From Zoogloea sp. (lineage in GTDB: Bacteria > Pseudomonadota > Gammaproteobacteria > Burkholderiales > Rhodocyclaceae): DNA of 64,000 bases. The stretch spans positions 319,501 to 383,500 of the forward strand of contig JADJBR010000004.1 of the NCBI GenBank assembly GCA_016703645.1. The letters run 5' to 3'. The notes below the pieces were generated by a model. That model had not been told where the DNA came from. It ran no database searches and saw only the letters and a program-made list of their open reading frames with translations. Made by a program: the position numbers and the translations under genes. Shown here piece after piece: positions 35,181 to 54,264 of the stretch. Position 1 is the first letter of the stretch. Every line of letters begins with the position of its first letter.

Positions 35181-37014
35181 GTGCGCCCAGCATGGGCGCA
35201 CTCCTGCGGGTGTAAGTCCCGCCGTAAGTTGATCACAGCGAACGAAGTGAAGCGCAACTGCGTGAGGGCGACCGAGCGTGGGAAGGAAGCGTGGAGCATA
35301 AGCTGCGAGCCGATGAACAAGAACCGGATAGAAGGCGCTGCCGAGCAGGGCGAGCGGGCAATGAACCGCGAAGCTCTCGTGATCAAGGCGAAGTGGCGTA
35401 AATCCGGCGGTTGTGCAGCGAAGGAGTGCGTTCTTACCTGGGGAGATCTCGCCTTGTGCCTGAAAGGGCGACGGTGCTGAGCCGGAGCGAGAAGTCAGCA
35501 GAGGCCGCAGTAGCTGCTGGTTTGGGGCGAAGGGCCGAACGAATAGGAGGGCCGAAGGCCGTGTTGCTCGGACGTGCAATGCATCAGAAGCCTGGGAAAC
35601 TGGGGCGCAACGGGGGAGGGCGAGGTGAAGCCGAGTCTGAAGCGGTGTGTGATGAAGCACGGACGGCGCGGCATGAAACTGGAAGCCCGGGGCGAGATGA
35701 CCTGCTTGCGCGGGCGCTCGCGAAAGCGAACATGGAGGCGGCGTGGAAACGCGTCAAATCCAATGGCGGCAGTGCTGGGGTGGATGGGCTGTCGATTGCC
35801 GAGACGGCGGACTACCTGAAAGCGCATTGGCCCCGGATTCGGGAATCCTTGTTCGATGGCAGCTACCGGCCTGCGCCGGTGCGCCGCGTCCAGATCCCGA
35901 AGCCCGGTGGCGGGGTGCGCGAGTTGGGGATTCCGACGGTGACGGATCGGCTGATCCAGCAAGCCCTGCTGCAAGTCTTGCAGCCCATGATTGATCGGAC
36001 GTTCTCCGAACACAGCTACGGCTTCCGGGCCGCCGCGCGCACGACGCGGTGCTCGAAGCACAGCGCTACGTGCAGGACGGCTACCGGGTGGTGGTCGATG
36101 TGGATTTGGAGAAGTTCTTCGACCGGGTCAATCTGACATTCTGATGGAACGCTTATCGAGACGAATCGAGGATAAGGCCGTGTTGCGGCTGATCCGTCGC
36201 TACCTTGTGGCCGGCATCATGGATGGCGGAGTGGTCATGGAGCGCTACGAAGGCACGCCGCAAGGCGGGCCGCTGTCGCCGCTCTTGGCCAACGTGCTGT
36301 TGGACGAGGTGGATCGGGAACTGGAGGTGCGTGGCCATCGGTTCGTGCGCTATGCCGACGACTGCAACGTGTACGTGCGCAGTCACAACGCGGGCGAACG
36401 GGTGCTGAAAGGGCTGCGCAAGCGCTACGACCGGCTCCATCTGAAGGTCAACGAGGCCAAGACGGCGGTCGCGCCGGCGACCGGTCGCAAGTTTCTGGGC
36501 TACGAGCTGTGGCACAGTACGGGGATCGGATCAAGTGTGCGGTCGCTCGAAAGGCGCTCGAAGCCTTCAAGCAACGCATTCGGGAAATGACGCGTCGCTC
36601 GGGTGGGCGCAGCCTGCCGGAGGTCGCCGAACGACTACGGACTTACATGCCGGGCTGGAAGGCGTACTTCAACTTGCGCAGACACCCAGGGTGTTCCGCG
36701 AACTCGACGAGTGGCTTCGTCACCGGCTGCGTGCGTTGCAGCTCAAGCACTGGCGTCGGGGCACGACGATATATCGGGAACTGAAGGCAATGGGCGCCTC
36801 GAAAACGGACGCCCGGCAGGTGGCCGCGAACAGTCGGAGGTGGTGGCGTAACAGCCGCTTCCTGCTGAACCGCGCCATGCCTGTTGCCTACTTTGATCGG
36901 CTCGGCGTGCCTCGGCTTTCATGACCTCAACTGCTCGAACCGCCCGGTGCGGACCCGCATGCCGGGTGGTGTGGGAGGGGAACGGTCAGGTTAGCTGACC
37001 GCCCCTATCCCGAT
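35181..37014 (+). mobile_element. Group II intron, probably class IIC, with reverse-transcriptase ORF
   Basis: The 5' end GTGCGCCCAGCATGGGCGC fits the GUGYG consensus and the opening of domain I. After the ORF, a 34-base domain V hairpin (about 36939-36971: CCGCCCGGTGCGG paired with the CGCATGCCGGGTGG side) precedes domain VI, whose stem GGGAGGGG/CCCCTATCCC carries an unpaired A in the 3' arm, the branch-point position. The intron ends at AT 37013-37014. It lies immediately after an intrinsic terminator, the preferred target of class IIC introns. The class is inferred from that location and the compact structure, not from a full fold. Confidence 0.85.
35561..36924 (+). pseudogene. ltrA: Group II intron reverse transcriptase/maturase, multiply frameshifted
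   Basis: Homologous blocks follow in order but in changing frames: DLLARALAKANMEAAWKRVK and GSAGVDG (RT0), IPKPGGGVRELGIPTVTDR, then DVDLEKFFDRVN, GTPQGGPLSPLLANVLLDE, the catalytic RYADD at about 36349-36363, then the maturase X region WKAYFNLAQTPRVF and HWRRGTTIYREL. Breaks lie near 36026-36040, 36132, 36521 (GGGG where GGGGG is needed) and 36674. Each shift is -1. All motifs are intact otherwise, so this is either very recent decay or a sequencing artefact. The GTG start at 35561 has AGGAGG ten bases upstream. Confidence 0.8.
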
Positions 37015-46625: not shown

Positions 46626-46710
46626 TGGTGCGGGGCAAGGGACTCGAACCCTCACGCCTTGCGGCGCTGGAACCTAAATCCAGTGCGTCTACCAATTCCG
46701 CCAACCCCGC
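46626..46710 (-). tRNA. tRNA-Leu (anticodon UAG)
   Basis: The minus strand folds as a long-variable-arm tRNA: acceptor 5' GCGGGGT paired with the 3' GCCCCGC side, D-arm GGCGGAATTGGTAGACGC, anticodon stem-loop CTGGATTTAGGTTCCAG with TAG at the anticodon, variable arm CGCCGCAAGGCG, and T-arm GGGTTCGAGTCCC. The discriminator A and a genomically encoded CCA are present. It reads CUA and related Leu codons. Confidence 0.95.
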
Positions 46711-50154: not shown

Positions 50155-51837
50155 ATGAAGAAAATATGGCTGAAAAGCTACCCCCCAGGCGTTCCGGAAG
50201 AGATCGATGTCAACCAGTTTGCATCCCTGGGCGATCTGTTCGAGAAGAGCGTCGCCCGCTTTGCGGATCACACGGCCTACGTCAATATGGGCAAGTCCAT
50301 CAGCTATGCCCAGCTTGATTCGCTTTCGCGTCAATTCGCGGGTTATCTCCAGGGTGAGTTGAAACTTGGCAGAGGTGCCCGGGTGGCGCTGATGATGCCC
50401 AACTGCCTTCAGTATCCTGTTGCCATGTTCGCCGTGCTGCGCGCGGGATTCACCGTGGTTAACGTGAATCCGCTCTACACGGCCCGGGAGCTTGAGCATC
50501 AGTTGCGGGATTCGGGTTGCGAGGCGGTCGTGATCATGGAGAATTTTGCGCACACCCTTGCCGAGGTGATGGGACGCACATCGGTGCGTCACATTGTCGT
50601 CACCGGCTTGGGCGACATGCTTGGTTTTCCGAAGTCCCTGCTCGTCAATCTGGTTGTTCGCCACGTGAAGAAGATGGTGCCTCCCTGGAGCCTGCCAGGG
50701 CACGTCGGGTTTCGCGATGCCCTCGACAAGGGGGCTGCCCACGGTCTGGCGCCGGTGGCGATGACCCATGACGACCTGGCATACCTGCAATATACGGGCG
50801 GAACGACGGGGGTGGCGAAGGGGGCGATGCTGACCCATGGCAACATCATCGCCAATCTCCAGCAGGCCCATGCGTGGATCAGTCCGTACGTGAAGGAAGG
50901 CGAAGAGGTCATCATCACGGCCCTGCCGCTCTATCACATCTTTTCGCTCACAGCGAATTGCCTTACTTTCTTCAAGATCGGCGCCAGCAATGTGCTGATC
51001 ACCAATCCGCGGGATATTCCGGCTTTCGTCGCAGAACTGGGCAAGTACCCCTTCACCGTGATCACTGGCGTCAATACCCTGTTTAATGCCTTGCTCAACA
51101 ATCCGGAGTTCGAAAAGCTCGATTTCCGCACACTCAAGGTGGCTCTTGGAGGAGGCATGGCGGTGCAGCAGGCGGTGGCTGATCGTTGGAAGCGGGTAAC
51201 GGGGAAGGCCTTGGCCGAGGCCTATGGCCTCACGGAGACATCGCCGGCCGTCTGTATCAATCCGCTGGATCTCCCGGAGTTCAATCATTCCATCGGACTG
51301 CCCATTTCTTCGACGGATGTCAGCCTGCGGGATGACGATGGGTATGAGGTTTCCATGGGAATACCCGGAGAACTGTGCGTGAAAGGCCCCCAGGTCATGA
51401 AGGGGTATTACAACCGGCCGGAGGATACGGCCCGGACATTCACCCATGATGGCTATCTGCGTACGGGTGATGTGGCCACCATTGATGATGATGGCTTTGT
51501 ACGCATCGTCGATCGCAAGAAAGACATGATTCTCGTCTCGGGCTTCAACGTCTATCCGAACGAGGTGGAAGACGTGGTTGCCGCACACCCGGGTGTGATG
51601 GAGGTGGCTGCCCTTGGTGTCCCCGATGAGCATTCCGGCGAGGCGGTAAAGGTCTTTGTGGTGCGAAAGGACCCCGCCCTGACGGCGGAGGCGCTGATTG
51701 CTCACTGCCGGGCGGGGCTGACGGGATACAAGGTGCCACGTTTCGTCGAGTTTCGTGACGAGTTGCCGAAAAGCAACGTGGGCAAGATCCTGCGCCGGGT
51801 CTTGCGTGACACGTCCCAAGGTTCAGGGCATGCCTGA
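50155..51837 (+). CDS. fadD: Long-chain fatty acid-CoA ligase
   Basis: A 560-residue AMP-forming ligase that activates fatty acids to acyl-CoA. The ATP/AMP motif [28 protein letters not shown], the hinge [20 protein letters not shown] and the C-terminal [10 protein letters not shown] are all present. The length and the N-terminal [18 protein letters not shown] match FadD-type enzymes. No other beta-oxidation genes are nearby. A GGAGAC ribosome site precedes the ATG. Confidence 0.9.
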
Positions 51838-51982: not shown

Positions 51983-52011
51983 TTGTGTTTTCGGGCTGTT
52001 GTGCGAATAAT
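51983..52011 (+). promoter_or_regulatory. Promoter of the ilvBN leader
   Basis: TTGTGT (51983-51988), a 17-base spacer, and AATAAT (52006-52011) give a reasonable sigma70 promoter. Transcription would begin about 20 bases before the leader-peptide ATG, the spacing expected for an attenuated leader. Confidence 0.6.
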
Positions 52012-52037
52012 TCGCAGCTAGTCTTGTAGATGACCTC

Positions 52038-52118
52038 ATGACCCTTTTCGCATTCGCCCTGCCTGTCGACGTCGTTGCTGTAGTACGCGTAGTAAGCGTA
52101 GGTGAGCGCGCGTCGTAA
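52038..52118 (+). CDS. Valine-rich leader peptide of ilvBN (ivbL-like)
   Basis: A 26-codon frame from ATG 52038 to TAA 52118 encodes a peptide with eight Val among residues 10-21 (VDVVAVVRVVSVG), plus two Leu. It resembles the E. coli IvbL leader peptide in having a VVRVV core. It ends 33 bases before an intrinsic terminator that precedes ilvB. This is the layout of a transcription-attenuation leader in which ribosome stalling at valine codons reports charged tRNA-Val. The ribosome site is weak. Confidence 0.82.
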   Translation: MTLFAFALPVDVVAVVRVVSVGERAS

Positions 52119-52192
52119 GGGTCTCCAGGTAGTCGATACAGTATTTCAGACCCCCGCCGGCGCGCAACCGGCGGGGGTTTTGTCTTTTTGTC
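52119..52192 (+). terminator. Attenuator of ilvBN: terminator with overlapping antiterminator
   Basis: CCCCCGCCGG (52151-52160), a 7-base loop and CCGGCGGGGG (52168-52177) form a 10-bp stem followed by TTTTGTCTTTTTG. Upstream, GGGTCT (52119-52124, directly after the leader stop) can pair with AGACCC (52148-52153), which takes the first bases of the terminator stem. Mutually exclusive pairing is what attenuation needs. Confidence 0.82.
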
Positions 52193-52244
52193 TTACCCCA
52201 GGCCCGGAAAGCGTTTCGGCTTCCAAAGCCCCAAGGAGAAATCG

Positions 52245-53909
52245 ATGATGCAAATGACTGGAGCAGACCTGATCGTGAAGCTGCTCGAACGGCAGGGAAT
52301 CAGCACCATCGCCGGTGTGCCCGGCGGTGCAGCCCTGCCGATGTACGATGCCCTGTCCAAGAGCGAACAGATCCACCACGTCCTTTGCCGCCATGAACAA
52401 GGCGCGGGCTTCATTGCCCAGGGCATGGCACGTGTCTCGGGTCGTCCCGAGGTGTGCCTGGCGTCCAGTGGCCCGGGTGCCACCAACTTGATCACGGCCA
52501 TTGCCGACGCCAAGCTTGACTCCATTCCCATCATTGCGCTGACTGGTCAGGTGCCCCTGTCGATGATCGGCACCGATGCCTTCCAGGAGGTGGACACCTA
52601 CGGTCTGACCATTCCCATCACCAAGCACAACTTCCTGGTTCGTTCGGCCAAGGAACTGCTGACCGCTGTTCCTGCGGCCTTTCGCATCGCCATGTCCGAC
52701 CGGCCGGGTCCGGTGCTGATCGATGTGCCCAAGGATGTGCAGAACCAGATGGTCAGCTTCGAGGAATTCCCCGATGTGGTGGTTCCCGATGCGGCTCCGA
52801 GCTTCGACATCGCGGCGATTGAAGAGGCCGCGAAGATGATTGAGGCAGCCGAGCGCCCGGTTCTTTACTTGGGTGGTGGTGTGATCCATTCGGGCGCTGC
52901 CCATATGGCTGTCACCCTGGCCGAGCAGGCCTCCCTGCCGACCACCATGACCCTGATGGCCCTCGGCGCGATGCCCATGGACCATCCCCTGTCCCTGGGC
53001 ATGCTTGGCATGCACGGTGCCCGATATACCAACTACGTGCTAGAGGAGGCGGACCTGCTGATCTGTGTGGGTGCCCGTTTCGATGACCGTGCCATCGGCA
53101 AGACCGCCGAGTTCTGCCCGAACGCCAAGATCATCCACGTCGACATCGACCGTTCTGAACTTCACAAGGTCAAGAACGCCCACGTGGCCATCGCGGGCGA
53201 TGTGGCGCAGGTGTTGTCGGAGCTGCTGCCGCGCGTCAAGCCCCAGTTGCGCAAACGCTGGTTGTCCCACGTGGAGAGCCTCAAGGGCCGCTTCCCCCTG
53301 GCCATGCCGGGCATCGACAACCCGCGTTCGCCCTATGGCCTGATCCATGCCGTGGCCAACTGTCTCGACGATAACGCCATCATCACCAGCGACGTCGGTC
53401 AGCATCAGATGTGGGTGGCCCAGGCCTACCCGTTTCGCCGTTCGCGCCAGTGGCTCAATTCCGGTGGTCTCGGCACCATGGGCTTCGGCTTCCCGGCCGC
53501 GATCGGCGCTGCGCTGGCTGCGCCGGATCGCACCGTGGTGTGCTTCTCCGGCGACGGCAGCCTGAAGATGAACATCCAGGAGATGGCAACGGCCGCCCAG
53601 GAGAACGTCAATGTGAAGATCGTGCTGTTCAACAACCAGTCCCTGGGCCTGGTGCATCAGCAGCAGAACCTCTTCTATGGCAAGCGCATCATGGCGTCGC
53701 GCTACGAGCGTCCCACCGACTTCCTCAAGATCGCCGACGGCTTCGGCATGCGTGCGGTGGATCTCGATCCGGCGCCGAATCCCCGGGCCACGCTTGCGGA
53801 GGCGCTCAACACCCCGGGCCCCTGCCTGATCCATGCCTCGATCGACCCGAACGAATTCGTTTACCCGATGGTGCCGCCGGGCGCCGCCAACTCCGAGATG
53901 ATCGGCTGA
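52245..53909 (+). CDS. ilvB: Acetolactate synthase large subunit, IlvB type
   Basis: Catalyses the first shared step of branched-chain amino-acid synthesis, with thiamine diphosphate, FAD and Mg2+. The 554-residue protein has the catalytic Glu51 in CRHEQGAGF, GPGATNLITAIADA, the FAD region ending GARFDDRAIGK, and the ThDP-binding SGDGSLKMN...NQSLGLVHQQ. Its sequence follows enterobacterial IlvB (isozyme I) closely rather than IlvI. AAGGAG seven bases upstream sets ATG 52245. It is preceded by a valine leader-peptide attenuator and followed by ilvN. Confidence 0.93.
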   Translation: MMQMTGADLIVKLLERQGISTIAGVPGGAALPMYDALSKSEQIHHVLCRHEQGAGFIAQGMARVSGRPEVCLASSGPGATNLITAIADAKLDSIPIIALTGQVPLSMIGTDAFQEVDTYGLTIPITKHNFLVRSAKELLTAVPAAFRIAMSDRPGPVLIDVPKDVQNQMVSFEEFPDVVVPDAAPSFDIAAIEEAAKMIEAAERPVLYLGGGVIHSGAAHMAVTLAEQASLPTTMTLMALGAMPMDHPLSLGMLGMHGARYTNYVLEEADLLICVGARFDDRAIGKTAEFCPNAKIIHVDIDRSELHKVKNAHVAIAGDVAQVLSELLPRVKPQLRKRWLSHVESLKGRFPLAMPGIDNPRSPYGLIHAVANCLDDNAIITSDVGQHQMWVAQAYPFRRSRQWLNSGGLGTMGFGFPAAIGAALAAPDRTVVCFSGDGSLKMNIQEMATAAQENVNVKIVLFNNQSLGLVHQQQNLFYGKRIMASRYERPTDFLKIADGFGMRAVDLDPAPNPRATLAEALNTPGPCLIHASIDPNEFVYPMVPPGAANSEMIG

Positions 53910-53928: not shown

Positions 53929-54264
53929 ATGTCCGAACAGAACACCAACCTTTCCGAGTACATCCCCGATGTTCCCGAGCACAATGGCTTCACCAAGGTC
54001 GTGCTTGAGTTGGGGGTGGCCAACCACCCTGGCGTGATGAGCCATATCTGCGGTCTTTTTGCCCGCCGTGCTTTCAACGTGGAAGGCATTCTCTGCATGC
54101 CCGTGGGCTCAGGCAACACCAGCCGAATCTGGCTGCTGATCTTCGAGGATGAGCGACTGTCCAAGATGATCAAGCAAGTTGAGAAGCTTGAGGACGTGCT
54201 CTACGTGCGTCAGCATGTGGGCGAGCACCCCGTCTTTGGCCGGCTTGACGAGTTCTTCCAGTAA
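53929..54264 (+). CDS. ilvN: Acetolactate synthase small subunit, IlvN type
   Basis: A 111-residue regulatory subunit with a single ACT domain: ELGVANHPGVMSHICGLFARRAFNVEGILCMPVG. IlvH-type subunits are about 165 residues with a second domain, so the length, together with the IlvB-like partner, assigns it to IlvN. It mediates valine feedback inhibition in the family. GAGGAGAG precedes the ATG, 19 bases after the ilvB stop. Confidence 0.92.
   Translation: MSEQNTNLSEYIPDVPEHNGFTKVVLELGVANHPGVMSHICGLFARRAFNVEGILCMPVGSGNTSRIWLLIFEDERLSKMIKQVEKLEDVLYVRQHVGEHPVFGRLDEFFQ

Follow-up and report, generated by a model that had tools for sequence, protein, structure and literature searches.

The window analysed in this study, a stretch of 64,000 nucleotides from a Zoogloea sp. 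contig, carries on its forward strand the genes ilvB and ilvN for the large and small subunits of AHAS I, preceded by a leader with a short valine-rich ORF and an intrinsic terminator (Table 1). A first-pass annotation of this DNA had named the two genes ilvBN, and this was borne out by the NCBI AHAS I models NF006016 and NF006036, both of which matched over their cut-offs. The nearest named relative in the genome collection was Zoogloea sp. UWPOB_ZOOG2, whose IlvB is 100% identical. The same genome contains a second AHAS large-subunit-like gene (G000:C7:728242-729930), 43% identical to IlvB; the covariance model R1 used below found only one leader in the genome. Elsewhere in the window, group II intron domains (35262-35535; Rfam RF02001 and RF01998) and a tRNA gene on the minus strand (46629-46710) were seen.

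Table 1. Features of the ilvBN leader and operon of Zoogloea sp. (positions are those of the window)
Feature	Position	Strand	Description	Basis
Promoter candidate	51983-52011	+	-35 TTGTGT (51983-51988), 17-nt spacer, -10 AATAAT (52006-52011)	By eye
Mini-ORF	52030-52041	+	ATG ACC TCA TGA; overlaps the leader start codon (ATGA)	ATGAC unchanged across 21 leaders
Leader peptide ORF	52038-52118	+	26 codons; Val control run 52065-52100	
Segment 1	52040-52046	+	GACCCUU; predicted to pair with segment 2, AAGGGUC (52117-52123)	Helix list, folding, swap test
Segment 2a	52108-52115	+	GCGCGUCG; antiterminator arm within the end of the leader ORF; pairs with 52158-52165	Folding, swaps, covariation
Segment 2b	52119-52124	+	GGGUCU; antiterminator arm just past the leader stop; pairs with 52148-52153	Folding, covariation
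Segment 3	52148-52165	+	Antiterminator 3' arms (52148-52153, 52158-52165); includes terminator 5' arm (52148-52160)	Folding, covariation
Intrinsic terminator	52148-52190	+	Stem 52148-52180, U-rich tail 52181-52190	Terminator scan, covariation
Ribosome-binding site of ilvB	52233-52238	+	AAGGAG	Read from sequence
ilvB	52245-53909	+	AHAS I large subunit	NF006016, 1024.7 bits (cut-off 870)
ilvN	53929-54264	+	AHAS I small subunit, one ACT domain	NF006036, 152.1 bits (cut-off 128); PF22629

Read from the window sequence, the leader ORF starts with ATG at 52038, stops with TAA at 52116-52118 and encodes the peptide MTLFAFALPVDVVAVVRVVSVGERAS, in which eight of the twelve residues from position 10 to position 21 are valine. 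Only one of the 631 short ORFs of the window (12-60 aa, both strands) reaches eight Val in 12 residues, the next best having five, and none of the 49,613 short ORFs from 60 order-3 Markov simulations did so, the best having seven. The Val density of the leader ORF is therefore far beyond chance, and the first-pass description of eight valines in a twelve-residue stretch was confirmed. That description spoke of valine/leucine attenuation, of which the valine part stood; leucine sensing was rejected because the two Leu codons of the leader, at positions 3 and 8, both lie before the control run. No Shine-Dalgarno sequence was apparent by eye before the leader start.

The terminator stem comprises 13 pairs, 10 of them G-C, followed by TGTCTTTTTG, and begins 29 nt after the leader ORF. 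Upstream of the operon there is thus a short ORF in which codons for one of the pathway's amino acids are clustered, and an intrinsic terminator separates that ORF from the first gene; the strong terminator noted at first pass was confirmed, its pairs being kept with compensatory changes (see below). As the hairpin also lies downstream of an acyl-CoA ligase-like gene on the same strand (50155-51837), it might be a mere terminator of that gene, with the Val-rich ORF arising by chance. This explanation can practically be dismissed, given that no simulated ORF matched the Val density and that the leader set recurs before ilvB in other genera and phyla, a conservation which already contradicts it.

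The promoter proposed upstream matches the consensus at 8 of 12 positions when counted by hand, and a strict sigma-70 scan returned 0 sites. When 5' regions of the Zoogloea clade were compared, its AATAAT was nevertheless seen in all 21, preceded in 20 of them by CTTGTG (CTTGTC in L028). This candidate promoter is the less certain part of the leader. The mini-ORF follows it and overlaps the leader start. Its ATGAC stands 23-25 nt from the start of AATAAT in the 21 Zoogloea-clade leaders, the leader start shifting from 8 to 19 nt further on, and in 17 of the 21 the mini-ORF stop and the leader start overlap. A role of the mini-ORF in frame keeping was considered and is not supported: of the five spacings seen, those of 8 and 17 nt give the overlap and those of 16, 18 and 19 nt do not, and mini-ORF and leader are in the same frame in L017. 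Alternatively, its conserved sequence may form part of the region of the 1:2 pairing.

The antiterminator consists of an 8-bp helix, GCGCGUCG/CGGCGCGC, together with 6 bp of GGGUCU/AGACCC, about 14 bp in all, and uses parts of the terminator 5' arm and of the terminator loop. The GGGTCT/AGACCC pairing suggested at first pass as the antiterminator does exist, but it is only a part, the 8-bp helix lying outside it. Folding of the transcript to 52166 was computed with a masking ribosome whose A site was placed at each Val codon or at the stop codon. P for the 6-bp arm was 0.98 whichever Val codon the ribosome occupied; for the 8-bp arm it was 0.87-0.96 at seven of the eight Val codons and 0.46 at the last. 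With the ribosome at the stop codon, P was 0 for both arms. In computed folding, antiterminator and terminator thus exclude each other, the antiterminator being able to form when the ribosome stalls on a control codon and not when it has reached the stop.

In transcripts without a ribosome, the 1:2 pairing had P 0.97-0.99 for ends from 52125 to 52160, was displaced at equilibrium by the antiterminator at 52166 and 52170, and stood together with the terminator in the finished RNA. Such a predicted protector pairing would complete the classical attenuator logic. When the full RNA was folded to equilibrium, the terminator won in all four states tested, including those with the ribosome on Val codons; antitermination would therefore need kinetic trapping, and the switch would have to act by the order of synthesis. 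Switching by the order of RNA synthesis is the logic of classical attenuators.

We infer from these features that the leader is translated, that stalling and readthrough occur on it, and that the operon responds to valine, in the following manner. A ribosome would translate the leader peptide while transcription by RNA polymerase is under way. When valyl-tRNA is plentiful, the ribosome would reach the stop codon at 52116 and cover segments 2a and 2b, leaving segment 3 free to form the 3:4 terminator, and transcription would stop near 52190. When valyl-tRNA is short, the ribosome would stall in the Val run, 2a and 2b would capture segment 3 ahead of the synthesis of segment 4, and, the terminator being blocked, ilvBN would be transcribed. 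If the leader were not translated at all, 1:2 would form first and favour termination. The tRNA sensed would be valyl-tRNA, leucine not being supported.

The helices were examined for compensatory change in alignment A1, which holds 75 distinct leaders including E. coli ivbL, and this covariation of the hairpins in relatives was one of the checks put forward at first pass. For the terminator, 94.3% of cells were paired and 8 of 13 pairs had changed on both sides, against 44.5-66.6% and 2-4 pairs in the slid controls. For the antiterminator, 81.5% of cells were paired and 7 of 13 pairs, in 58 cells, had changed on both sides; the slid controls gave 33.4-50.3%, 4-7 pairs and 5-19 cells, the one slid version that also reached 7 such pairs doing so in 12 cells. 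Two pairs of A1 were weak, 47-119 being unpaired in 41 of the 75 leaders and 58-107 in 27. Across the 75 distinct leaders, both helices are thus preserved, with compensatory changes. RNAalifold on the 21 Zoogloea-clade leaders alone gave 0 pairs changed on both sides, because this clade is too uniform, and on that set it did not choose the proposed 1:2 helix.

Segments 2 and 3 were also exchanged between groups, using 69 distinct leaders of the 88 loci described below, in 20 groups. Own pairing was stronger in both directions in 15 of the 20 groups; for Zoogloea it was -24.7, against -18.4 and -22.0 when swapped. One swap direction was slightly stronger than the own pairing for L103 and L074 and one was equal for L071, while both were stronger for L078 and L105/L107. 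In these last three leaders the antiterminator duplex is weak in the fixed window; by eye the helix persists, with the stop codon shifted. The 1:2 pairing was on average stronger own than swapped in the compared groups (Zoogloea, -13.1 vs -8.7 kcal/mol, 19 loci; Enterobacteriaceae, -12.0 vs -9.4 kcal/mol, 25 loci), with 4-36% of swaps, depending on the group, equal or stronger.

The 88 loci (80 + 8) were picked by IlvB similarity, at an identity of at least 55%. Every one of them has a Val-rich, or in four loci Val/Leu-rich, short ORF before ilvB, in agreement with the first-pass expectation that the peptide would be present in related ilvB leaders. At least six Val in 12 residues occur in 84 of the leaders, the other four (L024-L027, Tepidiphilus and a relative) having 4-5 together with Leu. 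Leader scores were 5.5-11 in correctly read loci. In 13 control loci for which the opposite strand had been read they ranged from none to 4.5, and two loci with a different type of AHAS (43-45% identity) scored 2.5-3.0. The terminator begins 19-33 nt after the leader stop in 84 of the 88; in L048-L051 it was placed by motif, 27 nt after the stop, before A1 was built. The leaders of L058 and L059 encode the E. coli peptide.

These same lineages served to train covariance model R1, whose weak matches are lost under strict filters. In the family of Zoogloea, at E up to 1e-6, the model matched 98 of 199 genomes, in 33 of 68 genera, and AHAS I ilvB stood beside the match in all 30 family loci checked out of the 98 matching genomes. 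A draw of 300 genomes from the order gave 37 matches at E up to 0.01 and five below 1e-9, the latter comprising, under strict filters, four of the nine family members among those listed and one of the 291 others. A draw of 398 from the phylum gave 73 matches at E up to 0.01 and ten below 1e-9, these being, besides the Zoogloea genome itself, nine members of family f58, with an ilvB of 66-69% identity. R1 also matched, at E up to 1e-6, 10 of 240 genomes of the Coraliomargarita phylum and 7 of 247 of the Pseudodesulfovibrio phylum; 12 of the 18 matches there lie before ilvB, and five are leaders rich in branched-chain amino acids before other things (L183, L185, L187, L188, L191). The remaining locus, L180 (E 1.8e-10), was rejected as a false match, a terminator with neither Val-rich leader nor ilvB, by which R1 is unclean even below E 1e-6. 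Weaker matches from the order and phylum draws, with E above 1e-6 (L116-L140, L150-L169), were not counted because they are mostly plain terminators; only L153 among them has an ilvB-like gene (42% identity) within 1.5 kb. In a draw of 274 genomes from the class, eight had AHAS I at E up to 1e-180, and six of the seven others showed a clear Val leader, L230 by eye a weak one only.

In all, the leader was present in 94 of the 95 close ilvB relatives examined, in several phyla. Some of these phyla are represented by a single metagenome bin each, which may include foreign contigs; the genomes of Coraliomargarita and Puniceicoccaceae K14 carry no such mark. The first-pass view that such leaders are seldom annotated in betaproteobacteria holds in that the curated IvbL models miss the peptide; the leader itself is common in the family of Zoogloea and was rare, under strict filters, among the other genomes drawn from the order.

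Some of these loci depart from the usual arrangement. Candidatus Scalindua L080 has two tandem Val-rich leaders before ilvB, each with a terminator (366-485 and 530-647), and R1 found both (E 2.6e-8 and 4.4e-12) although the upstream one was outside the training set. In the Coraliomargarita phylum, L183 and L188 have a Val-rich leader and terminator (near 1501-1615) before a PLP-dependent aminotransferase-like gene, for which a scan of L183 put no NCBIfam model above its threshold; comparable leaders occur in L185 and L187, with no named gene downstream. A Leu/Val-rich leader of the Pseudodesulfovibrio phylum (L191, 1501-1628) precedes a partial ilvD-like gene, cut off, whose best match was NF002068 (601 bits, 644 needed).

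Sequence, folding, covariation and relatives together support the first-pass proposal of an ivbL-kind system, and we hold it highly probable that the Zoogloea ilvBN leader is a ribosome-mediated transcription attenuator of this type. Such leaders are not always attenuators, since in Streptomyces coelicolor changes to the leader codons before ilvB were without effect according to PMC1262725. By this precedent the Zoogloea leader ORF could be translated while ilvB is controlled by another route, such as translation coupling, reinitiation or a regulator protein, the hairpin being only a partial terminator; the overlapping mini-ORF hints at coupling upstream. Such control seems improbable here. 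The antiterminator arms, one at the ORF end and one after the stop, show covariation with the terminator arm, for which a termination switch is the best explanation, and a distance of 126 nt between leader stop and ilvB start, interrupted by a strong hairpin, is poor for reinitiation.

A further role of the leader peptide or of the terminated short RNA in trans would be compatible with attenuation, and such action is described for peTrpL of Sinorhizobium (PMC7298713). The RVV and VG residues are kept through the Zoogloea peptides listed, but they fall on Val codons and on the RNA arms, and differ in other lineages. Nothing else points toward trans action, and we regard it as very unlikely.

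Five of the eight leader Val codons are GTA, compared with 8 of 208 in six genes of the window (p 4e-6). The same preference was seen in 23 of the 25 betaproteobacterial loci listed, where GTA makes up 0.56-1.00 of the leader Val codons and at most 0.11 of those of ilvB, the exceptions being L105 (0.38) and L107 (0.14). The five enterobacterial loci listed have no GTA in the leader, and the share in twelve other loci was 0-0.67. ARAGORN, with which 56 of the 62 tRNA matches of the genome were read (the other six being 82 nt long), gave one Val tRNA gene each with anticodon UAC, GAC and CAC in the Zoogloea genome. GTA should be read by the UAC anticodon alone. The preference may serve sensing or RNA structure. 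The contrast between GTA in most betaproteobacteria and GTG/GTC in enterics offers a natural experiment on the theory that explains control codons by isoacceptor charging (PMC1183508).

The history of the operon was approached through an IlvB tree of 58 rows, 37 betaproteobacterial and 12 enterobacterial (one of the latter of family f58). The 12 enterobacterial rows nest inside the betaproteobacterial ones, next to L106, L029/L104 and L102 (support 99-100 / 88-99), and holding the betaproteobacteria together was rejected (AU p 0.0005). The tested group had been chosen once a first tree, of 74 rows, was at hand, and 16, then 15, of the rows of that first tree, mostly long-branched ones, were excluded. 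In a quick tree of 66 rows, with eight other gammaproteobacterial rows added, the nesting stood (p 0.00005), with SH-aLRT values of 83, 98 and 89 on the three forks. Like that of E. coli, the leader peptides of L029 and L106 have GNAP at their end, an independent sign. The E. coli ivbL-ilvBN cassette may thus have come from the betaproteobacterial family of Zoogloea. We lean slightly towards a broader picture, in which the Val attenuator and the AHAS I genes form one transferable, self-regulated cassette whose RNA switch was kept across several phyla, the E. coli operon derives from a transfer out of this family, and the switch was also put before ilvD and an aminotransferase gene. PMC5727371 places AHAS I only in gammaproteobacteria, apart from Desulfovibrio and one firmicute, and holds that it arose there by duplication; the present data argue against this view. 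If the tree is right, the textbook E. coli operon was acquired together with its switch.

Among known systems, the Zoogloea peptide matched no curated family at E up to 10, the IvbL models PF08049 (Pfam) and NF007579 (NCBI) included; with a limit of E 0.01, three of 33 leaders matched PF08049 and four NF007579. Neither the leader of the window nor those of 20 related loci had an Rfam 15 match at gathering score; at a lax threshold the best was rnk_pseudo (23.7 bits vs 55), and riboswitch, T-box, His_leader and similar families were not reached. Among the matches listed from the open PMC literature, none described an attenuator of ilvBN for Zoogloea or for the family it belongs to. The review PMC6123439, citing Vitreschak 2004, mentions putative leaders before branched-chain genes across various Gram-negatives, and the attenuator of this family may already be in print in that survey. 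The ilvB-OMG RNA motif and Corynebacterium ilvB-II uORF (PMC10272879) resemble the Zoogloea leader in having a uORF rich in branched-chain codons before ilvB. Actinobacterial ilvB leader peptides likewise combine a short Ile/Val/Leu ORF with a terminator before ilvB (PMC1262725), but their AHAS genes belong to another cluster according to PMC5727371.

The closest counterpart is E. coli ivbL-ilvBN (PF08049, NF007579), in which a Val-run leader likewise precedes an AHAS I ilvB, the leader end pairs with the apical GGCGC of the terminator, and a GGG past the stop with a CCC in the terminator arm; in A1 both leaders align in register. The Zoogloea leader differs in its shorter peptide, unmatched by either family, in its GTA codons where E. 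coli uses GTG and GTC only, in two Leu codons outside the control run, and in the mini-ORF overlapping its start. The Zoogloea switch looks ordinary in mechanism and of the same kind as that of E. coli. Its interest is that a well-supported attenuator stands in a group where AHAS I is reported absent (PMC5727371) and where curated family models miss the leader, and that, with RNA arms which the alignment shows to be held by selection, it makes the E. coli mechanism testable in a distant setting.
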